From NCBI GenBank assembly GCA_036940085.1, contig JALLBK010000444.1:1-42725 (forward strand): a stretch of 42,725 nt of DNA. Direction: 5' to 3'. Made by a program: the position numbers and the translations under genes. The DNA is from Discostella pseudostelligera. Its lineage: Eukaryota; Bacillariophyta; Thalassiosirophyceae; Thalassiosirales; Thalassiosiraceae. Of this stretch, positions 3,406 through 30,785 are shown piece by piece (position 1 is the first letter of the stretch; the number at the start of each line of letters is the position of its first letter). The notes under the pieces were generated by a model, which was given only the letters and a program-made list of their open reading frames with translations, was not told the origin of the DNA and ran no database searches.

Positions 3406-5124
3406 TCATCGATCACTTCTCATACTCGTACAATGCCCCTCTCGGTATCCAATCAGAGAATCCACCCCAACCGAACACAGTCGTTCGGCAACACAAAATC
3501 TGGATTGAGAATAGTCATGGTGACCCAACAAACCCGTCTCGTTCCTAAAAGTGCACGGAAATACCAAACCCATCACGAAACAATAATGCTCCATCAACAA
3601 CACAAATTCTTCAAGCTCATCGAGCATTTCGCATCGTGCGGCAACTCTACGTTCCTCATCTGAAATCACACCATAATTGTAGGCAGACATCATATCACAT
3701 CCAACGGCAATATCAAACCCACCAGAATGCACAAGCCGCGACAGTTGATCCGATAATGTCCGTGTCCCCTCGAGACCTAATAGGAGGTGCCAATATTTAC
3801 TTTCGCTGTCATTGTCAAGTACTTGGGACGTACCATTTTTTCTTTCATCGACCACTCCTCTATCCTCACCACGTACTGCTGATGTTATTCCCGCCTTATG
3901 CAAATTGTCAATCATCGTTCTGCCAAAGCGATCATGGGAAGGTATCGGATCATACACCGCGAGCGCCACAAACGATGATGATGACGTTGATGCTGATGTC
4001 GTCGACGAACTGCCAATACTATCACATGGACTCTCGGCAATGCACCGTAACAACTCCCGTATCGAACATTCCGGAAGGTACATCAAAACACACTCTAACA
4101 CAAATAATGTAGGACATGATTTGTCGTATCCGTGATTTGGTCGAGATAGTTTCTCAAATAGTTGGGAGGGATCGGAACGCAAATCATGTCCGATGAGATG
4201 ATAATTGGCCAAGGCTGTTGGTGACGGTTGTTGTTTTGAATTACTTTCCACTTTCTCCCTATTGATATTGATCTTCGTCGGCGGTGAAATGTTAATTGCA
4301 TACGAAGCATCATCGTCGATTCTATCGTTGTCATTCTTGGCATCATGATTATGATCATGCACGGCATTGTATCGATAGGTATATCCATGGGGTAACAAAC
4401 AGTTCGGTAACCAGTCTCGTGCTTTTTGTGACATGACCGATGGATGGTCTACCTCGTACCATCGAACGTTATCCTTCATCACGTTGCTGTTGCTACTGCC
4501 ACCAACTTGATGTTTTGTCGCATCTTCTTCCTTCTCCTCTAATGATTTCATTTTGTCTCCATACATGTAACGCAAATAGTTCGTATCCCTCCCAGATCCC
4601 AATATTACAATCTGTCTTTGTTGATGATGATGACGGTTATTCGTTCCATCGTCGTCAGTATGATTCCCCTCCGATTTTTCTGCCGGTGAAAATGTAAGGG
4701 AGAGGAACGCATCAATTGCCCGCTCAATGGCCTTGACACGTGCATGTGTGCCCCTTCGTATGATGGGCTCGATGGTGTAATCGGCGCCAGGGCTGCCTCC
4801 CCTACCACAACCAGCATGGCTGCCACCGCCACCGCAGCATCCGCCTCTACCAATTCTACCAACTCCACCAGAGGAAGCAGATGCTGCTGTAGACGAAGAA
4901 GATGAATTCAGCCCACGTGCACCACACGCCATTGCTTGTAAAAATGGATCCTGATAATATCCATATTCGACACAGGATAGTTTGGACAGGATGGCAGTAT
5001 CGGCGGTGGAGATTACCGATTGAGTGAAGTAGTTGTCGTCGGTGCCGCCGCAGTTGTTGTTGTTGCTTCTACGGCTCCCTTTGTTGCTTCCAGTGGTGGT
5101 AGTGTTACTCATGGTCATTATCAT
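3406..5124 (-). CDS. LCMT1: Leucine carboxyl methyltransferase (PP2A catalytic-subunit methyltransferase)
   Basis: A 572-residue intronless gene. Enzymes of this family use S-adenosylmethionine to methylate the C-terminal Leu carboxylate of the PP2A catalytic subunit in the cytosol, which controls B-subunit recruitment. Visible signatures, in order: an N-terminal block ending in SCVEYGYYQDPF, the IIRRGTHARVKAIE segment, the SAM-binding loop VILGSGRDTNYLRY, an acidic strand WYEVDHP, GHDLRSD (adenine-binding Asp), the LFVLECVLMYLPE strand, a YDPIPSHDRFGRTMIDNL block, and a C-terminal DMMSAYNYGV with LDELEEFVLLMEHYC, as in LCMT1/PPM1. It is longer than the roughly 330 residues of human LCMT1 because of Ser/Gly/Asn-rich insertions near residues 1-30, 75-110, 160-205 and 270-300. 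The start could be any of the first three Met. Confidence 0.9.
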   Translation of the reverse strand: MIMTMSNTTTTGSNKGSRRSNNNNCGGTDDNYFTQSVISTADTAILSKLSCVEYGYYQDPFLQAMACGARGLNSSSSSTAASASSGGVGRIGRGGCCGGGGSHAGCGRGGSPGADYTIEPIIRRGTHARVKAIERAIDAFLSLTFSPAEKSEGNHTDDDGTNNRHHHQQRQIVILGSGRDTNYLRYMYGDKMKSLEEKEEDATKHQVGGSSNSNVMKDNVRWYEVDHPSVMSQKARDWLPNCLLPHGYTYRYNAVHDHNHDAKNDNDRIDDDASYAINISPPTKININREKVESNSKQQPSPTALANYHLIGHDLRSDPSQLFEKLSRPNHGYDKSCPTLFVLECVLMYLPECSIRELLRCIAESPCDSIGSSSTTSASTSSSSFVALAVYDPIPSHDRFGRTMIDNLHKAGITSAVRGEDRGVVDERKNGTSQVLDNDSESKYWHLLLGLEGTRTLSDQLSRLVHSGGFDIAVGCDMMSAYNYGVISDEERRVAARCEMLDELEEFVLLMEHYCFVMGLVFPCTFRNETGLLGHHDYSQSRFCVAERLCSVGVDSLIGYREGHCTSMRSDR

Positions 5125-5776
5125 CTACTATCTCCAGTGTTCACGAGGCGGGACGAATTATGTGGTCCTCCATCTCCTTTCTCCATGGTCCGTCGGCAGC
5201 CGGCAGCCGGCCGGCGAGGGGGGATGTTTTGCCGCGGCTGGGCACGCGGAGAACAAAGCTTTCTTCTTTTTTAAAATAAGTTGTAAATGATCCTCAGTAA
5301 TGTAGATATTCTGTTTTCTCACATTTAAATTTTTGATTTTCGAAATTTCCGCTGTATGACTCTACGTCGGAATTTGTAATTCAAAAATGTCTCTATGAGT
5401 TCCTAAACACGTCGATTTAAATTCGGATTTTCATACTAGTTCCGATATATGTAGTATTTAAAATGGCGCGCCTGATTAAGCTATTGCAACAAGGATGGAG
5501 GACGTGACGGCGACGACGATGAACGATGGCAATCCATAATCCATGGCGATGGTACCATATCAAGGTAGAAGATCTGACGGAGCAAGATGGAACACTCATC
5601 TTAAAAGGGCAATGACCAAGGACCTTGATGTCGCTGCTGCCGTTTGCTAAGTCTAAGCTGGCATTCTAATTCATTGCCACGCTCGTCGATCTCTCTTCCG
5701 GCAGTTTCTTCAGCTGGAGTGCCAAGAAATCATAATTCATAATCAACATCGACATCATCATGGGCACACTCATATA
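5125..5776. other. Divergent intergenic region
   Basis: This 652-bp spacer is shared by the LCMT1-like gene (-) and the hydroxylase-glycosyltransferase gene (+). It includes an AT-rich block at about 5280-5470 and one TGGCGCGCC site at about 5464 that only partly resembles the E2F-like element seen elsewhere. No convincing open frame or RNA gene was seen. Confidence 0.5.
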
Positions 5777-8038
5777 ATGACTCCATCGACAATTATTCAA
5801 GGCTGGACGCCCAAAACTGACTTTCTCCTGCTATGCCCAATCGCATCATCGCAAACGAACGAGCGCCACGTCAATGGCAACCATCAACATAGCGGATATG
5901 ATATCATCGATCATGCCTTTGGCAAAATCTTTCCCGCGTCACTACTACATGAATTACAAAGTAATGGTTGGATTGACGATCCCAGCCGTGGCATTATTGG
6001 TAGTAGATTGAGCCCCGCACGGACGAAGACGGATGTCGATTTGGCGGGTTTGCTGCAGACCTTTGGCTCAACTACTTCCATGTTCGATGATAATAATGAA
6101 AGTGGTATTAGGGGGGATCTATCGGCATTCATATCTCGTCATGAACGAATGAAATTTTCGTTTCCAATGCAATATCCTTATCTTCACAAACTTGTCAGCA
6201 GTATCGAACATTCCGTCTGCAGCCGCATTGGGAAACAAACAATACTCGACAATGAATCTTTTCCCAGCAAAACCAATACAACATACTTTGAAATTGATAC
6301 AAACTTGACATCAGTTCAAATTGCCAAGTATGTCGGAGATGGTAAGGCGGGATATACTCGTCATTGCGATCGAGGAGCAGTTTGTCTAAATGAATTATCA
6401 AATAGCAGCAAAATGGAGTATTCGAATGGGAGCGCAATGGAGCGAATATTGACGTGTGTCTATTATGTAACGCCAGATTGGGATCAAGAGTTAGATGGTG
6501 GTGCATTGCGAATGTTTTCACCGAATATTAGAGATGATTCAATCGCCAATAATGTCGACCAGGATTCGTACTTTGATGTTTTTCCATATGCAGATCGGTT
6601 GGTTGTATTCCGGTCAGATATCATTGAGCATCAGGTCTTACCGAGTTTACGTCGTGATAGAATCGCCATTACTGTTTGGCTTTATGGAAAGGTTGTTCAT
6701 TCAGGACCAAACACAGAAGCGGTGATGTCATCTTCTGACGAATTGGATTTGCAACCATCGGTACTTTATTCTAACTGCCTTCCCAAGGAGACTGAATCTA
6801 GCCTTCCTCCGCCATTGCCAGTAGCATCGCACACAACATCATGCGAGGATCAGGTCCAATATAAGTCAATCTTTGTTGCCATTCCATCATACCGTGATGT
6901 AGAAACGTGGACGACGATCAAATCATTAGTTGAGATGTCATGTTGTCCGGAAAGGATTTACATTGGAGTTATTTTTCAGGTGGATACGGCGTCAGAAGAG
7001 GAAACCAAACGTTTCACAACAGCAGTCGGTAGTGGGGTGACGGTCCAATCATCTCGTTGGAATGAGGCAACAAATTTTCGATCGATCGTGATGGACTACA
7101 GGCATGCTACCGGTACGTATTGTTGTTGCCATATGAATATCTCTTCATTTGTCATTGAAGTAATTCTCATTTCTGCTGAATACAAATATGTTGATCGCTC
7201 AGGTCCTTGCTATGCTCGACACCTGGCTCAAACCTTGCATCGTGGAGAAGACTATGCATTGCAAATCGACTCGCATATGCGCTTCCGACCTGGTTGGGAT
7301 GAGTATCTGATTCAACAATTGAATAAGACAAAGAGCCCTGAGAAAGCAGTTCTAACGACATATCCACCAGGGTATGATCCGCTACATGGTCCAGGACCCA
7401 TGGCAGAAACTCGAGCAACCATTTTGGTTCCATGGAAGTTTGAGGATGGAATCTTACGACAAAAAGGAAGGTTGCTTGAGCATGATTACAAGCACGCTTT
7501 GCCCAACGACAACATACCATGCCTACTCTATGCGGGAGGGTTCAATTTTTTCCACTCGTCCATTCTGGAGACCTGTCCGTATGATTCCAAACTTCATGGG
7601 CTGTTTTTTGGTGAGGAGATTTCCATGGCGGTAAGACTCTACACTCATGGGATCGATCTCTACGCACCACCTCAAACGGTCTGTTATCACTTGTGGAAAC
7701 GCAATTCATTGAGAATCAGAGTGGAGAACGACCCGTACAGAGTAAAACGGAAAGAACTGTCGTTGGAGGTTGTCCGTAGGCAACTTGTAGGACTGGGCGA
7801 AGGTATCGGGAATGTGAGATCCGTTGAGCAGTTCACTAAGGCGCTTGGTGTTGACTTTGATAACCAAACTCTGGGTAAAGGTTGTGAAGATTCTGGGTTG
7901 CACTCAACTGCATTCGTTTCCTCGTTATTATCAGGTAGTAAGATAGAGAATAATTCGGAAGACGGTACAGAAGCGAGAACCAGTGACGAAATGAGGTCTG
8001 TTTTGACATTTGTGAGCCGATTCATAAGCGAAACTTGA
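5777..8038 (+). CDS. Fusion of prolyl 4-hydroxylase and GT60 hydroxyproline GlcNAc-transferase (Skp1-modifying type)
   Basis: Two exons, 5777-7112 and 7203-8038, encode 723 residues. The 90-nt intron 7113-7202 (GTACGT...CTCAG) is in phase and has no stop. Removing it restores the family motif YRHATGPCYAR. Residues about 40-305 are a 2-oxoglutarate/Fe(II) prolyl 4-hydroxylase: HCD at 196-198 and H285 bind iron, R295 would bind 2-oxoglutarate, with the flanking TCVYYVTPDWD and GGALRMF blocks. Residues about 365-630 form a GT60 domain: FVAIPSYRDVETWTTIKSL at its start, a DSH metal motif at 468-470, and YAGGFNFFHSS and FFGEEISMAVRLYTHG near its end. In Dictyostelium and Toxoplasma the equivalent enzymes, PhyA and Gnt1, are separate and hydroxylate and then glycosylate a Skp1 proline in SCF E3 ligases, giving oxygen sensing. 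No signal peptide is visible, which fits a cytoplasmic role. The Skp1 substrate is inferred from the family. Confidence 0.88.
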   Translation: MTPSTIIQGWTPKTDFLLLCPIASSQTNERHVNGNHQHSGYDIIDHAFGKIFPASLLHELQSNGWIDDPSRGIIGSRLSPARTKTDVDLAGLLQTFGSTTSMFDDNNESGIRGDLSAFISRHERMKFSFPMQYPYLHKLVSSIEHSVCSRIGKQTILDNESFPSKTNTTYFEIDTNLTSVQIAKYVGDGKAGYTRHCDRGAVCLNELSNSSKMEYSNGSAMERILTCVYYVTPDWDQELDGGALRMFSPNIRDDSIANNVDQDSYFDVFPYADRLVVFRSDIIEHQVLPSLRRDRIAITVWLYGKVVHSGPNTEAVMSSSDELDLQPSVLYSNCLPKETESSLPPPLPVASHTTSCEDQVQYKSIFVAIPSYRDVETWTTIKSLVEMSCCPERIYIGVIFQVDTASEEETKRFTTAVGSGVTVQSSRWNEATNFRSIVMDYRHATGTYCCCHMNISSFVIEVILISAEYKYVDRSGPCYARHLAQTLHRGEDYALQIDSHMRFRPGWDEYLIQQLNKTKSPEKAVLTTYPPGYDPLHGPGPMAETRATILVPWKFEDGILRQKGRLLEHDYKHALPNDNIPCLLYAGGFNFFHSSILETCPYDSKLHGLFFGEEISMAVRLYTHGIDLYAPPQTVCYHLWKRNSLRIRVENDPYRVKRKELSLEVVRRQLVGLGEGIGNVRSVEQFTKALGVDFDNQTLGKGCEDSGLHSTAFVSSLLSGSKIENNSEDGTEARTSDEMRSVLTFVSRFISET
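7113..7202 (+). other. In-frame, stop-free 90-nt intron
   Basis: The donor is G|GTACGT and the acceptor CTCAG|GTCC. The length is divisible by three and the 30 encoded codons have no stop, so simple gene prediction reads through it. The retained peptide is hydrophobic and Cys-rich and interrupts a conserved GT60 block. Confidence 0.85.
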
Positions 8039-8165: not shown

Positions 8166-10805
8166 CTACAAATCTCTTCCTGAAGCTCCGTACTCCACAA
8201 GGAGGCCGGGCCGTGGGATTACAGGCGGTGATTTTACAACATGATCTCTAGTCCATGATTCTTCTTTCTGCTTCCGCGTCTTCTTCGGCTTCTCGAACGT
8301 TGCCCTTTGCCTTGACGCCATATCTGTCTGGGCAACATGCCGAGTCCACTCCCTTGGTAATTCTTGTAAAGTAACTGAATGCGGTTTGCGAGACCGTCTT
8401 AGTGGCTCATCGTATCCACATTCCGCAAGTAGTGGTAAGAATGCGCGAGGTGGGATACAGCGTCTGATTTCATCAAGGCACATGCCTCCAACTAACCCTT
8501 CTTCGCAGCATGAGGCGAAAATTTTTGATGCAATTGCATTTCTTTGTTCTCCGGGTGGCATAAGATTCGCGCATGCCTTCAGCATGTGACCATATGATAC
8601 TGCATCAGGCGAAACATATTTGCTCTGTTTCATTTGGTTGAATGTTTCAACTGCCACCGAAAGGGCCTGTCGTCTTTCTGCTTCGCTCCCTCGAGCTGAA
8701 AACGCAGCTGCATTCAATACAGTGTTGTAGCAGATAACATTTGGTCTTGTGTCATTACTTCCATCAACTTCGTGTAGATCTACCATCGCCTGTAAGATTG
8801 CGCTACACTTCTTCGCTTTGAACTGAACAACTTCTGATTTTGCCAATGCATTCAACACACTGGAGAAAGTGACCGCGTCAGGGGAGACTGTTGCAAACGT
8901 GTCTGATTTGTAATATTTGATCATTCTTAGCAGCAATGCTTCTGAACGCAATGCCGACTCGGGAAGTTGGCTTTTAGCCCACGAATTGATTACCGTGTTG
9001 TATGATAGGCGATTTGGGCGCACTGTAACAATAGCTACAATCGATAAAGACTAGTGAGAGGTCTTGTTCTCGATGCATCAAACTCGCTGCAACGTAGTAC
9101 AGAGGTTGTATCTTGCTTACCGCCACTCCTTTTAGGATATTGTGGATTCTTTTCCAGATTAGAAAGAACTTCTTCGGCCTTTAATGGAGCATCTTGACGA
9201 ACAGAGTTGCACCACGCTTTGATACACGTGTTGAACGTTATTGTATCAGGGCGGACGTCGTACTTATCCATCTTTGACAAAGTCTCCATTCTACGAAGAA
9301 GAGCTTCTGCCTTTTCGCCTGCATTAGGACTACCACTTCGTGCCCTAAAGAACATAGACAATGTCGTCAATTACATGAACGTGGAAAGTGTAAGCACAAG
9401 GCTGCGAGGCTTACCAGGCATCAATAACACTGTTGAAGACAACATTGTTGGGCTTCAATTCCTCTGCATACTGGTAACAGTCACCCCGAGACAAAACTTC
9501 GTCATAATCATCAAAGAGCCTATTCAATATACTCTCCGTGTGTTGAGCTGCTGTGGCAGTTCCGCATTTTGCCCAAGCCGAAATTGCAATTGAATACGAA
9601 TGAATTGTGGGCTTGACGAACTGACCGAATTCCTTCAGGTATTCCATTCTCTCCAAAATGGCGGTGGCTTTTGCTGCGGCTTCCACATTCCCAATGTTTG
9701 CGTACGTTGACATGACAGCATTCATCATTTGTGCAGTAGGTGATACGCCTAATCCAGAGTTTGCCTGGAGCAGACGGTCGATGACATCTTCGGCACGCTT
9801 GGTTGCATCAAGTGTCCCACTTTTTGCATAGGCGTCAATCAGCAGAGTGTATTGAATTGGTCCGGGGAGGTAGTTATCGTCATTTTCTTGCTTGGCAATT
9901 TCCTCCAAAGCATGTATCATCTCCTCGGCTTTTGTTGCAGCACTTGGATCATTAGATTTGATTAATTCTCTCACTTCCTGCATCTTCCAAAACTTTTTCC
10001 TTCTAGCACGTCGAGCAGAAGCACTCTCCCCCGAAGACCATTCATCATCAAGATGGTTGCTGTTGTCATTTTCTTCGTCATTTGGCGGAGAAGGTGATTG
10101 ATCGTCTCCATTGTCTTCGTCTTCCTCTTCGTAACCCATTAAATCATCTAATGTATCCGCGAGCGTCGACCTACTCCTCACTATTATTGATGGAGATCTG
10201 TCAATAGCATCTCTTGCTTGTTCAGTGATTTGAATTGCATTATTCCCCATGGAACTATCATATTTCTTATCCGAATGTGCAGATTGTAGCCTTTCCATGA
10301 GTTCAGCCTTGCGCCCTCCGACCGGAAGTCCCAATTCTCTGAGCCGCTCTTTTAGAACTGGGACAGTTAATAAATTTAGGTCCTCGCTGATTGATTCGTT
10401 GCTACCGATGCCAGTAGAAGAGACGGCTTCAATCTCCATATCTTCTCCTCCTTGGCCAATTAGTACTGAATTCGAAAGCAAGTAATGATGATGCAATCTC
10501 TCAATCAGCTCATTTTTCCTCCCATCGACGGATAAATTTAGTTGTCTCAATTTCTCCTTCAACTCCAACACCGTCAATTTGGATAAATTTTCCACTCCAC
10601 TCGAATCATCCAACTGTTCATTCGCTGCAAATGCTACTCTGAACCTTCTGCCAAGAGACGTTTTCCCGATAAAATCGTCTCTGAATACACATGATGATGA
10701 CGATGACGATGGCGTAGGCGTAGCTGACATCGGCCGGATGTCAGTGAAGGCACTAGACACTGACGACACAGCAAAAGCGTGTAGAAGTACAATTGAGGAT
10801 CGCAT
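8166..10805 (-). CDS. PPR-repeat protein with two SAP domains, probably plastid-targeted
   Basis: Three exons, complement of 9415-10805, 9121-9344 and 8166-9022, encode 823 residues. The introns are 9345-9414 (70 nt, GTAAGC) and 9023-9120 (98 nt, GTAAGC). Junctions restore VIDAWARSGSP and RSGVRPNRLSYN, both inside PPR repeats. Residues 1-19 are a signal peptide followed by SSA|FTD and a Ser/Thr/Arg-rich stretch, the diatom plastid-type bipartite presequence. SAP-like helix-extended-helix DNA/RNA-binding modules lie at about 74-108 and 143-177; each has the LTVxxLKExLRxLxLxV pattern and then GRKxELxERL. An acidic linker and basic patch follow, then PPR motifs from about residue 305 to 745, for example NTVINSWAKS and NTCIKAWCNS. 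PPR proteins bind organellar transcripts. Three E2F-like elements lie 180-230 bp upstream. It converges on the fusion gene with a 127-bp gap. Confidence 0.88.
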
Positions 10806-16076: not shown

Positions 16077-17704
16077 TTAATTACTCAATTCGTTACATAT
16101 TGTAGCAAAATAGTACCCATTGAAGACTTCTGAGCCCCCATTTGGATCACTGGTTTCACGTGGCCTAATAAAAGTTGACAATCTCTTAAGAGTTTTTCTT
16201 GACTCGTAGTTCCAATCTACTCGTCGCAAATACCAAACTCCGATTGAGCCAGACACATAGATTCCGATCGCCATTCCCCACCTACAGCAATGACATGATT
16301 AACAAAACGCTCAGCCCTGATCCTGCCTAACGAAATATATACACGCAGTAAACGATCTACTCACCAAAATCCGAATACGCCCAAGCCAGCTACGAAAGCA
16401 AACATTGATCCGATCGGGAGAGCGAGGATCCAAAATCCTAAAATGTTGAGCAGAAGGATAATTCTTTGTCTGCCCAGACCTCTGAGTACACCAGCTGTAC
16501 ATGCCTGAATTACATCCCCAACCATAAACACAAAAGCTATCGGTATCAAATGCGAGACAAGATGCGCAACATCATCATCACTACTAAACAAGTTGCCTAA
16601 TTGATCTCTGCATGGCACTAAAATAGCAATCAATACTGCCTGCACAGCGACATTGATGATGAACGAAGTGTGTGCTGATCGTTGGGCGTCTAGTGGCTTT
16701 TGCTCGCCGACAAGTTGGCCGACACGAATGGATGCTGCAATGCTGACAGCATATGCAAAACTCATGTAGAAGAAGGAAGAAATGGCCAACGTAATCAAGT
16801 GTGCATCAAGAGCTACCGTACCCAATAATCCAGCCAAGATGGTTGTAATCTCAAATGACCAGACTCCGCTGAGTAACTTAGCGATCCCGATATTGCTAAC
16901 TTCCAAAACGGTTTCAGTACTGAATACTTCATGTTCACTCTCGAAAATACTGGCCACGTATCCTTCAATGACTGCTTGTTCAGGAACATGTACAGACAGA
17001 TGATGAGGAGCTCCGCAAGCCTAGTCAACGACGTTGCCCATGGTGCACCCACAAGTCCCCCCCCCCCCACGCCATATATCAGTCCCCAGTTGAACAATGC
17101 ATTGATTGCATTGGCAAGCACGCCAATCCATACACCTGGTCCGAGTAAATTCTGAGTTTGCAAATACTTCATCAGCACCTTGAACAAATGATAGAGGGAA
17201 AAATCCGGGTATCAATCGATACGAAAATTCTCCAGCAGCATCTGCCAAGTCCGAATCCTGTCCGAATAGTTTCATACATGGTGCGCAAAGAGCCATGGCT
17301 CCAGACATAAGAATGGTAGTAAAGATGGTGATAACAAGTGAATTTCCCGTCCATATTGCATAATTGTCGAGTTGGTTCGCTCCATAACATTGAGACAAAA
17401 ATGTGTCGGTAGCTGTCTGAATGCCTAACATGGACGCATGCCACAAATCGAACCAAACTGTGGCAAGGGCGGCAGCAGCCAGGGCATCTTTGCCCAGATT
17501 ACCCACGAATGCGACGTCAACTACGGGCAAGCTATTTTGGAAGACGTCGGTTAGGATGATGGGATAGGTCGATTTAGACAAATCCATCAGATGCTGCCGG
17601 TAGGAAAGACAATCCAGCGGTGATTGTTCTTTCGCTGACACTGATGCAATTATGCTGTCCGTAGGAGGGAGGCCATCGTCATGTGTTATCTCTGCATTCT
17701 GCAT
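16077..17704 (-). pseudogene. MATE-family efflux transporter, copy 1, with two compensating frameshifts
   Basis: Complement of 16365-17704 and 16077-16281, with an 83-nt intron 16282-16364 (GTGAGT...TGTAG) that joins to GFWWGMAIGIYV. The total of 515 codons is divisible by three, but the frame is broken twice relative to copy 2. One extra base lies near 17190 (after GFFPL) and one base is missing near 16862 (before WSFEITT). Between them the correct reading continues for about 110 codons without a stop in the shifted frame, including the second-half MATE signature. A run of twelve C at 17057-17068 replaces a mixed sequence in copy 2 but is in frame. MATE proteins are 12-helix H+ or Na+ antiporters. 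The locus may be a young pseudogene or carry assembly errors. The C-terminal tail after DWNYES differs from copy 2. Confidence 0.75.
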
Positions 17705-18055
17705 TCTCCAAATTCATGATCGTTGAGGAATTGTGATTGTGTTCTCTTGGTGTCCTCTGTGGTGATATTGTACATTGTACCCCAACGTAAGTCCCAAAAG
17801 TCCATACGGGAATTCATCATCAACCGTCAACAAACCGTTATTCAACCTCGTTCGGCCGTCTCTAAAGAGGAGTCGAAGCGGGAGGCTCCATGTCCCATGT
17901 CCATGTCATGGTTCTCGTCTCGGTGATGGTGAATAGTGGTGAATGTTGGACGATGCACAGATGACGGTGGTGGTGACGGGTTTGGCGATACCTATTGGCG
18001 ACAATTGGAAATTACGGGAAGGACAGTGTGGCGATAATGCGGCGATGAAATCGAG

Positions 18056-20325: not shown

Positions 20326-21931
20326 TTAATGATGCTCACTATCTTGCGGAAGGCTCGAATCTGTGGCTTGTCTTGTATTGACAGTAGTAGACAATCGCTT
20401 CAGCATCTTCTTTGCCTCATAGTTCCAGTCGACTCGCCGCAAGTACCAAAGTCCGACTGCGCCTGCGACATAAATTCCTATCGCCATTCCCCACCTTCAT
20501 GATAGGCAATAGTTACAAAGCGTTAACGACCGGGCCGCAAGAAGTAGACACATGAGTATGCTCCTCTTACCAGAATCCAAATACACCCACTCCAGCAACA
20601 AAAGCCAAAATTGATCCGATTGGAACCGCAAGTATCCAAAATCCTAAAATGTTGAGCAGAAGGACTAATTTTTGTCTGCCCAAACCTCTGAGGACTCCGC
20701 CAACACAGGATTGAATAGCGTCACCCATCATGAATACAAATGATATGGGTATCAGTTGTGAAACAAGATGCGCAACTTCTTCGTCACTACTAAACAAGTT
20801 TCCCAAGAGATCTCTACAAGGGACAATAATCGCAATTAATACTACCTGGAGAGTGGCACTTATGAAGAAGGAAGTGTGGGATGATCGCTGAGCATCAAGT
20901 GATTTTTGCTCTCCAACAAGTTGGCCAACTCGAATGGATGCTGCAATACCGACAGCAAATGGGAAACTCAAAAAGATGAAGGTGGAAATCGTCAACGTGA
21001 TCATATGTGCATCCAGTGCCACCGTACCCAATAATCCAGCCAAGATGGTTGTAATCTCAAACGACCAAGCCTCCGCTGAAAAACTGAGCGCCCCCGAGAT
21101 GGCTAACTTCCAAAACGGTTTCAGTACTGAATACTTCATGTTCACTCTCGAAAATACTGGCCACGTTTTCTTCAATGATTTCTTGTTAAGGAGCATGTAC
21201 AGAATGATGATGAGGAACTCCGTAAGCCTAGTCAACGACGTTGCCCATGGTGCACCCATAAGTCCCCACCCCGCGCCATATATCAGTCCCCAATTGAATA
21301 CTGCATTGATACCATTGGCGAGCACGCCAATCCATACACCTGGTCCGAGTAAATTCTGTGTTTGTAAATACTTCGTCAGCACCTTGAACAAATATAGAGG
21401 GAAAAGTCCGGGTATCAATCGGTACGAGAATTCGCCAGCGGCATCTGCCAAGTCCGAATCCTGTCCGAATAGTTTCATACATGGTGCGCAGAGGGCCACA
21501 GCTCCAGACACAACAATAGTTGTAAAGATGGTGATTATGAGTGAATTCCCCGTCCATATTGCATAATTGTCGAGTTGGTTCGCTCCATAACATTGAGACA
21601 AAAATGTATCAGTTGCCGTCAACCATCCTATCGTAGCTGAATGCCACAGATCGAACCAAACTGTGGCAAGGGCGGCAGCTGCTAGCTCATTTTTACCCAA
21701 TTGACCCACAAACGCGACATCAACTACGGGCAAACTATTTTGGAAGACTTCAGATAGGATGATGGGATAGGTCAATTTCGACACATCTATCACATGCTGC
21801 CGGTAGGAAATATGATGTGTCGGTGAATTTACGCCAGCGCTTGTCGTTTCCGCCGATTCTGACGCTAGATGTGATGCACTGGCGCTATTCTCGGAAGGTA
21901 AGTCCTCTCTATTTGCGGCAGATGAATTCAT
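20326..21931 (-). CDS. MATE-family efflux transporter, copy 2, intact
   Basis: Complement of 20571-21931 and 20326-20494; the 76-nt intron 20495-20570 (GTAAGA...TGAAG) joins to GFWWGMAIGIYVAG. It encodes 509 residues. The N-terminal 45 residues are polar (Ser, Ala, Glu), then twelve hydrophobic helices follow, with MATE signatures such as VDVAFVGQLG, WATSLTRLTEFL and ASIRVGQLVGEQ. The membrane location and a substrate/cation antiport role follow from the family; the substrate is not predictable. Copy 1, 2.6 kb away, keeps the same intron position and nearly the same sequence, so the two arose by duplication. The tail past DWNYEAKK is copy-specific. Confidence 0.9.
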
Positions 21932-22533
21932 TTGAAGGCTATGAGCTATGGGGTGAGATTGAGAGTGGATAGTAGAGAAGACGACATCACGGTCGGTTAA
22001 GATGGCCCATCATGGCCATGGCACGTGGGACGGTGCACCGGTTGCCTAGTAGTGCGCGCCATTTTCAAAAATGGCGGGAAGCATTCATAAAAGAAAGCGG
22101 TCCAACCATGAGCGCCGTCGACGCCCCGTAGAAGATTTTCACGTGCATTTCCGAGGACAACGTTTCAACCCAAGGTGGTCAATCGCCCATTAATCAATGA
22201 TATTGCAACAAAATATCAGTATCGGATTTGTTTCCCGGTCGGCGGTCCCCAATAGAGCTACTGGATTGTTTTTACATGGAATTGCCAGGCGCGATTGCGA
22301 ATTGAAAGCGGCCATCGATGAGCGATGAGCCATGGCAAACAAACGCAACGATGCATCGCGATTGGCTTGGAAAACATCAAAGGTGTCATTCCTAAGTTTA
22401 TCTTGGTGACATTATCTTCAAAATAAGCGCCACCACAGGATATGCACTCAGCATGCTCAAACTGAACCGATGAATTCATCACATGATCTAGATCAACGAC
22501 AGACCTCATTCAGTTCTTGGGCCATCCTCGCAT
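21932..22533. other. Spacer between MATE copy 2 promoter and the phosphoesterase 3' end
   Basis: About 600 bp. Apart from the GGCGGGAA element I see no supported gene. An 83-codon minus-strand frame at 22258-22509 has two Cys pairs but no recognisable family and lies where the phosphoesterase 3' UTR should be. Confidence 0.5.
22071..22080 (+). promoter_or_regulatory. E2F-like element upstream of MATE copy 2
   Basis: ATGGCGGGAA lies 140 bp upstream of the MATE copy 2 start at 21931. The flanks are CAAAA and GCATT, so only the core is conserved. Confidence 0.45.
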
Positions 22534-28829: not shown

Positions 28830-28991
28830 AGAAACAATTGAAATGGACTTCCCTCCGACCCCTCCCTAAAAATGCACCAAACACTCGCCTCCCATCCAAG
28901 CTCTCACCTTCGTAACACCCAACACGAAGTCACATCACATACTATCCATCACTTACCTCATATTATTCAAACGAACGAGGTTACCAATACA
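28830..28991 (+). promoter_or_regulatory. Leader/promoter shared with the short silaffin-like paralogue
   Basis: Sequence just upstream of the coding start matches 25709-25870 in short blocks (AAATGGACTTCCCTCCGAC; ACACGAAGTCACATCACA; CCATCAC). This indicates that promoter or leader was copied along with the gene. An ATG at 28872 opens the same frame 40 codons earlier, so the block may be partly translated. Confidence 0.5.
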
Positions 28992-30785
28992 ATGATGGAA
29001 CCCCATGAAGAGTCGGCGCTAGTCACAGTCGATATCGAATCCAACGACATCGAATCCAAGCCAAGCTATGTCGAACTTGCTTCAGATTGTGGCATCGTTA
29101 TCCTGTCCGATTCGACACACAAAGCCGTAGGTGTATCGTCCACGAGACCCTACAACAAGATAAGGAAGTTCATTGTCCCTCTTACACTCATTGCTGCTGT
29201 ATCAGGTACCATTGTGGCAGTATCCCGATATGAAGCCAATATCAAGGAGAACCAAGCACTGCAGTCTACCACCACCGCTATCGAGAATTTGTTGTCTGTT
29301 GAACCGAGAGCAAACACCAATGCCACTACTATCGCCACCAACACCAGCAACAGCAACAAGAAGAACAACAATAGCGTGGTTGCATCCAAGGGCCCGAAGG
29401 ATGGAGAGGGTAACGGTTCCAAGAGCTCCAAGTCTGATGGTCGGGCAGGAGAAGCAGGAGGAACTGAAGAATTCGGTTCAATGAGTATGTTGTTTGATGC
29501 CGAAGACATCGACATAGCATTGTTAGCAGCAGAGGTTAATATCATGAAAGGCGGCGAAAGTAAGAAAGGTTCAAAGGGTTCCAAGTCAGGTGGTGGAGGT
29601 TTTGGAGAAGGAACATTTGGAGAAGGAGCTGGTGACGGTGGTCTAGAATCATTTGGATCAATCTCATTGTCAATGAACATGATGGTCGACATTGGGACCA
29701 ACTCACTCGACGTGACGAAAGCTGCGAAATCAAGCAAGATAAGGAAGGGAACCGGATCCAAGGGCTCCAAGGTAGCACCTGACTCGGCAGGTGCCGGTGG
29801 AACAGGTGCTGGTGGAACAGGTGCTGGTGGAACAGGTGCTGGTGGAACAGGTGCTGGTGGAACAGGTGAAGAGGGTGGAGATGATACTACGACTATAGTG
29901 CCACCGACAACGACTGGCCCAGATGAAGACGGTGGTGATGGAACTACAACGATTGCACCACCAAAGACCTCAGGTCCAGGTGAAGATGGCGGTGATGACA
30001 CTACGACGATAGCGCCACCGAAGACCACTGATCCAGGTGAAGATGGCGGTGATGATACTACGACGAAAGCGCCACCTACAACCGTTGGTGATGGAAGCAC
30101 TACGATAGTGCCAACGACTACGGCTAATCCAGATGAAGACGGGGGTGGTGACACTACGACGATAGTTCCACCAAAGACCACTGATCCAGGTGAAGACGGT
30201 GGTGATGGAAGTACTACGATTGCGCCACCAACAACGAAGAGCTCTGATCCTGACTCTGATCCTGGAGAGGGTGGTGATGACACTACGACGATAGTTCCAC
30301 CGAAGACCGCTGATCCAGGTGAAGATGGTGGTGATGGAAGTACTACGATTGCGCCACCAACAACGAAGAGCTCTGATCCCGGAGATGGTGGTGATGACAC
30401 TACGACGATAGTGCCGCCGAAGACCACTGATCCAGGTGAAGACGGTGGTGATGGAACAACGACGATTGCACCACCGACAACAGCTAATCCAGGTGAAGAC
30501 GGTGGTGATGACACTACGACGAAAGCGCCACCTACAACCGGTGGTGATGGAAGTACTACGATTGCGCCACCAACAACGGCTGAACCAGGTGATGACGGTG
30601 GAGAAGAGGGTTTTAATGGAGACGATTGGTTTTCCATGTCAATGTCGATGTCGATGGCGGCTTCGGAACAAGTAGTAGACGAGCATGCAACCTTTGGCAT
30701 GCCTATGGACTTTGAGTCCGAGGTCGAGATGCAGAATGGTCCAGTCTTTTACAGAAGAAAGTATATTGACAACCATTTGTTGTAA
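28992..30785 (+). CDS. Silaffin-like / mucin-like surface protein with lysine clusters
   Basis: 597 residues from the ATG at 28992 (an in-frame ATG at 28872 would add 40 polar residues; I prefer 28992 because the upstream part matches the non-coding leader of the paralogue). A hydrophobic segment at about 59-77 (FIVPLTLIAAVSGTIVAVS) can be a signal anchor. Lysine clusters KGSKGSK (about residue 193) and KAAKSSKIRK (about 243-252) resemble the KxxK clusters that direct silaffins to silica. Then five GAGGT pentapeptides and about twelve Asp/Gly/Thr/Pro units of DDTTTIxPPxTT type follow, a probable O-glycosylated stalk, and a Met/Ser segment SMSMSMSMAAS. The first half of the paralogue at 25889 matches this protein from the hydrophobic segment on. 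A wall/biosilica role is inferred, not shown. Confidence 0.75.
   Translation: MMEPHEESALVTVDIESNDIESKPSYVELASDCGIVILSDSTHKAVGVSSTRPYNKIRKFIVPLTLIAAVSGTIVAVSRYEANIKENQALQSTTTAIENLLSVEPRANTNATTIATNTSNSNKKNNNSVVASKGPKDGEGNGSKSSKSDGRAGEAGGTEEFGSMSMLFDAEDIDIALLAAEVNIMKGGESKKGSKGSKSGGGGFGEGTFGEGAGDGGLESFGSISLSMNMMVDIGTNSLDVTKAAKSSKIRKGTGSKGSKVAPDSAGAGGTGAGGTGAGGTGAGGTGAGGTGEEGGDDTTTIVPPTTTGPDEDGGDGTTTIAPPKTSGPGEDGGDDTTTIAPPKTTDPGEDGGDDTTTKAPPTTVGDGSTTIVPTTTANPDEDGGGDTTTIVPPKTTDPGEDGGDGSTTIAPPTTKSSDPDSDPGEGGDDTTTIVPPKTADPGEDGGDGSTTIAPPTTKSSDPGDGGDDTTTIVPPKTTDPGEDGGDGTTTIAPPTTANPGEDGGDDTTTKAPPTTGGDGSTTIAPPTTAEPGDDGGEEGFNGDDWFSMSMSMSMAASEQVVDEHATFGMPMDFESEVEMQNGPVFYRRKYIDNHLL
29789..29869 (+). repeat. 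15-bp minisatellite encoding GAGGT
   Basis: Five units of GGTGCTGGTGGAACA, nearly identical at DNA level, encode Gly-Ala-Gly-Gly-Thr in frame. The low divergence implies recent expansion or ongoing slippage. Confidence 0.9.
29880..30600 (+). repeat. Coding repeat, unit 45-57 bp, Asp/Gly/Thr/Pro-rich
   Basis: About a dozen units built on GGTGAAGATGGCGGTGATG followed by (GA/CA)ACTACGACGATAG and CGCCACC. They encode EDGGDDTTTIAPPTT-like segments. Two identical longer inserts encode TKSSDP, so units were also duplicated in pairs. Confidence 0.85.

Follow-up and report, generated by a model that had tools for sequence, protein, structure and literature searches.

The locus described here raises the question of whether a single gene of the diatom Discostella pseudostelligera encodes the first two enzymes of Skp1 modification, a PhyA-type prolyl hydroxylase and a Gnt1-type GlcNAc-transferase. 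In Dictyostelium and Toxoplasma these are separate proteins. The window, which is the whole stretch of DNA that was analysed, comprises 42,725 nucleotides, and the features of the locus are collected in Table 1. A forward-strand frame is open from stop to stop at positions 5657-8038 (793 amino acid residues), with the first ATG at 5777 and the end of the stop codon at 8038. In its unspliced translation of 753 residues, Pfam places 2OG-FeII_Oxy_3 (PF13640, E 3.3e-15) at residues 181-303 and the GT60 family GlcNAc (PF11397, E 3e-62) at residues 364-673; these values exclude chance for both domains. The fusion in one gene, claimed in the first-pass annotation, is thereby confirmed: one ATG and one stop codon were found instead of separate starts and stops for hydroxylase and transferase.

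Table 1. Features of the hydroxylase-transferase locus
Feature	Position	Strand	Details
PhyA-like P4H and GT60 (Gnt1-like) fusion gene, ATG to stop	5777..8038	+	723 aa spliced
Prolyl 4-hydroxylase (2OG-Fe(II) oxygenase) domain	6317..6685	+	PF13640; H196, D198, H285, R295
GT60 GlcNAc-transferase domain, split by predicted intron	6866..7795	+	PF11397, E 3e-62 to 7.9e-62; DSH 468-470
Predicted GT-AG intron within the transferase part	7113..7202	+	90 nt, frame-keeping; splice prediction and alignment of relatives

The predicted intron has a GC content of 0.33, compared with 0.45 for the exons. Since it keeps the frame, the unspliced reading is also open. Splicing it out yields the segment ATGPCYARH, as in the relatives of the protein. 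A database search returned 217 such relatives, and the best 120 of them were examined and aligned. At the intron site, 110 of these 120 sequences are continuous, one (P0001) reads through, and nine diverge just after the site, which is how gene models would look if an intron in this position had been left unspliced. P0001, the top relative, has 753 residues and is nearly the same protein with the intron left in.

The catalytic landmarks of both enzymes, which had been reported to lie in one spliced frame, are all there: His196, Asp198, His285 and Arg295 for Fe and 2-oxoglutarate, and Asp468-Ser-His470 for the transferase (spliced numbering). In the alignment of the best 120 of 217 relatives, His196 and Asp198 are each kept in 117 of the 117 rows with a residue (three gaps each), His285 and Arg295 in 120 of 120, and Asp468 in 111 of 112, with eight gaps. 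The first four residues make up the putative Fe(II) triad HxD...H and the 2-oxoglutarate arginine of a PhyA-type prolyl 4-hydroxylase. The Asp-X-His motif has a role in the catalytic domain of GT60, and its presence in the predicted transferase is consistent with Gnt1.

Among prolyl 4-hydroxylases, the N-terminal domain appears to be closest to Dictyostelium PhyA and EGLN. In the ranking of PDB sequences, Dictyostelium PhyA (6t8m, described there as a hypoxia-sensing PHD) comes first at E 2.9e-13 and EGLN1 follows at 1e-7. When a PhyA fragment was compared with the 18 prolyl 4-hydroxylase loci of the same genome, the fusion scored 53.3 bits and the runner-up 27.8; only the portion of PhyA that aligns with the fusion served as the query, which gives a mild bias toward it. 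A structure model of the relative P0002, made with AlphaFold2 from 18 sequences, has a mean pLDDT of 67 and a pTM of 0.45, with a good hydroxylase core. The best 50 of its 434 Foldseek matches (E <= 0.001) are all PHD2/EGLN1 or, at rank 42, the Dictyostelium PHD, with TM-scores by target of 0.57-0.70 and rmsd values of 7-12 Å; this comparison concerns the hydroxylase part only. Between the domains, pLDDT falls below 50 at residues 326-358 and 370-376, and this stretch of the model fits a flexible tether but is no proof of the channelling that the first-pass annotation proposed.

The reading we prefer, with a probability of roughly 85%, is that the gene encodes a soluble enzyme with two activities, belonging to the pathway that modifies Skp1 in the cytoplasm. 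With O2, 2-oxoglutarate and Fe(II), the N-terminal PhyA-type domain would hydroxylate the proline that lies in the Skp1 segment NDFSPEEE; the resulting hydroxyproline would then receive GlcNAc from the C-terminal Gnt1-type domain. The earlier assignment of the domains to the first two steps of Skp1 modification is well supported at the level of sequence: PhyA is the top PDB match, the fusion has no strongly hydrophobic stretch, in contrast to the other seven of the eight GT60 loci examined, and one Skp1 carries the predicted acceptor proline.

Three Skp1-family loci were found in the genome, on C131, C51 and C320. The strongest Skp1 match, the one on C131, has NIANDFSPEEEQQVREENKWCEEP at its end. 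It retains the putative acceptor proline, so that the proline predicted by the first-pass annotation for the organism's own Skp1 is present in one of the three genes. In the other two, both diverged, alanine takes its place (MTAEEE on C51 and DFSAEEE on C320). The acceptor proline also occurs in the Skp1 of organisms that lack the pathway, such as plants, and it is therefore necessary but not sufficient. As for the downstream steps, a GT8 gene on C949 (1318-2502, + strand) is much more similar to Pythium Gat1 (6mw5, E 2.4e-41) than to glycogenin (E 3.2e-9), which makes it a candidate Gat1. This enzyme acts late in the Skp1 pathway of Toxoplasma and Pythium. A GT2 search for PgtA, which combines GT2 and GT74, gave six matches and one candidate, on C67 (727-3180, - strand), which has a long N-terminal part free of Pfam matches and is possibly PgtA. 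The genome also has nine F-box and six cullin matches.

The enzyme might instead have both activities and be directed mainly at another cytoplasmic hydroxyproline protein. The lack of the proline in two of the three Skp1-family genes would agree with this. However, the strongest Skp1 match has the proline in its known context, and the genome encodes a relative of Gat1, which the PDB names as a Skp1 galactosyltransferase. We consider such a target unlikely, and Skp1 is retained as the probable substrate.

The fusion can be compared with the remaining GT60 genes of the genome, which measures 23.0 Mb in 963 contigs. The 15 GT60 matches found by profile search are spread over nine contigs and the 18 PF13640 matches over 17; contig C444, which carries the fusion, is the only one with both. 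Eight GT60 loci were compared as raw stop-to-stop frames without exon models, two GT60 matches on C67 being left out. The seven other loci share the GT60 catalytic domain with the fusion (22-31% identity over the aligned pieces). They differ from it in having a strongly hydrophobic stretch and in the absence of a hydroxylase domain from the GT60 frame. The top 19-residue hydropathy is 1.08 in the fusion and at least 2.2 in each of the seven others. Judged by this hydropathy scan only, the fusion would be a soluble protein with no membrane anchor, as in cytoplasmic Gnt1. A second hydroxylase-GT60 fusion was found neither in the GT60-bearing frames of the seven other loci nor by contig overlap of the GT60 and PF13640 lists.

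The same comparison bears on a Golgi enzyme acting on hydroxyproline proteins of the cell wall. Hydroxylated prolines do occur in diatom walls, and the seven other GT60 loci appear to be membrane-bound. However, the hydropathy maximum of the fusion is low, and among the best 120 of 217 relatives only five exceed 1.6. P0001 does so through its intron, P0081 and P0098 within the transferase domain, and P0101 and P0119 in what by eye resembles read-through of an intron. A Golgi location is thus very unlikely, and the cytoplasmic enzyme remains the preferred reading.

Some further observations on glycosyltransferase genes may be added. The nine contigs with GT60 matches exceed the number in a review (PMC8724618), which mentions up to four pp-alphaGlcNAcT genes in diatoms and other protists. 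PF03407 (GT77-like) has four matches in the genome and PF04488 (GT32-like) ten, and none of these genes was assigned to AgtA or Glt1. Two PF04488 genes with equal scores lie about 4.7 kb apart on the + strand of C52 (62519-62743 and 67179-67403), perhaps as a result of recent duplication.

The same architecture occurs elsewhere, as both Pfam domains are present in 120 of the best 120 of 217 relatives. Fifteen of these 120 rows have an organism name, covering nine named genera (Cyclotella, Skeletonema, Stephanocyclus, Thalassiosira, Chaetoceros, Attheya, Cylindrotheca, Nitzschia and Seminavis) and one unnamed member of the Bacillariaceae, all of which we take to be diatoms. Seventeen rows, by manual count among the same 120, bear the JGI name "[Skp1-protein]-hydroxyproline N-acetylglucosaminyltransferase". 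Three two-domain relatives (P0002, P0011 and P0103) carry MMETSP transcript labels. P0002 has 61% identity at 100% coverage, a similar start and end, and a continuous sequence across the intron site. Together with the single frame in Discostella, this indicates that both domains are probably encoded by one transcript. An artefact of assembly or gene modelling in which two adjacent genes are read as one is extremely improbable and was rejected: the assembly is fragmented, but no stop codon or predicted intron separates the two domains in frame 5657-8038, and the relatives, including those labelled as transcripts, share both. A search of IMG/VR viral contigs with an alignment profile of the fusion gave 14 pattern matches, of which none was confirmed.

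The first-pass annotation had left it undecided whether this fusion has been described. It has: PHYa-Gnt1 fusions of protists appear in a 2019 mBio paper (PMC6437050), and a title in the reference list of PMC8724618 names a dual-function hydroxylase/GlcNAc-transferase acting on Skp1 isoforms of a plant pathogen. From PMC9485057 and PMC7864055, which report Skp1 modification in Pythium ultimum, we infer that the pathogen is Pythium, a water mould grouped with the stramenopiles in PMC11570480. The Pythium enzyme resembles the diatom fusion in having both activities in one protein, in coming from a stramenopile and in the presence of several Skp1 isoforms. It differs in that, by its title, activity on these isoforms is shown, while in the diatom the activity is presumed from the domains. 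Diatoms are also listed among the groups whose genomes have pathway-like genes (PMC3515798). In the open-licence papers searched, titles and beginnings of abstracts gave no description of the diatom fusion in particular, and no diatom activity or mass-spectrometric data on Skp1 modification were found there.

The fusion architecture is already known and is not a discovery; the present analysis extends the reported protist fusion to a family that spans at least nine named genera of diatoms. Compared with PhyA and Gnt1 of Dictyostelium and Toxoplasma, the fusion has catalytic domains of the same kind and the same predicted substrate site, but joins in one gene what is separate there. Since the genome that carries the fusion also has an acceptor proline and a Gat1 relative, and the fusion recurs in other diatoms, oxygen sensing through Skp1 can now be put to the test in photosynthetic laboratory species. 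It is conceivable, although rather doubtful, that the diatom, itself a producer of oxygen, couples O2 and 2-oxoglutarate directly to Skp1 glycosylation by one processive tethered enzyme. One Skp1 isoform would then be modified and the two proline-less paralogues would not, so that the cell would have SCF ligases regulated by O2 next to others blind to it.

The genes flanking the fusion are a leucine carboxyl methyltransferase-like frame, divergent and upstream (3406-5124, - strand), and a PPR protein frame, convergent and downstream (8166-9050, - strand); they give no hint of a functional cluster. Elsewhere in the window, two closely similar adjacent frames on the - strand (16361-17713 and 20567-22009) look by eye like duplicated MATE-type transporters. 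A long frame on the + strand (28842-30785) has a hydrophobic segment followed by an array of repeats, recognized by eye, of the type DDTTTIVPPKTxDPGEDGGD.
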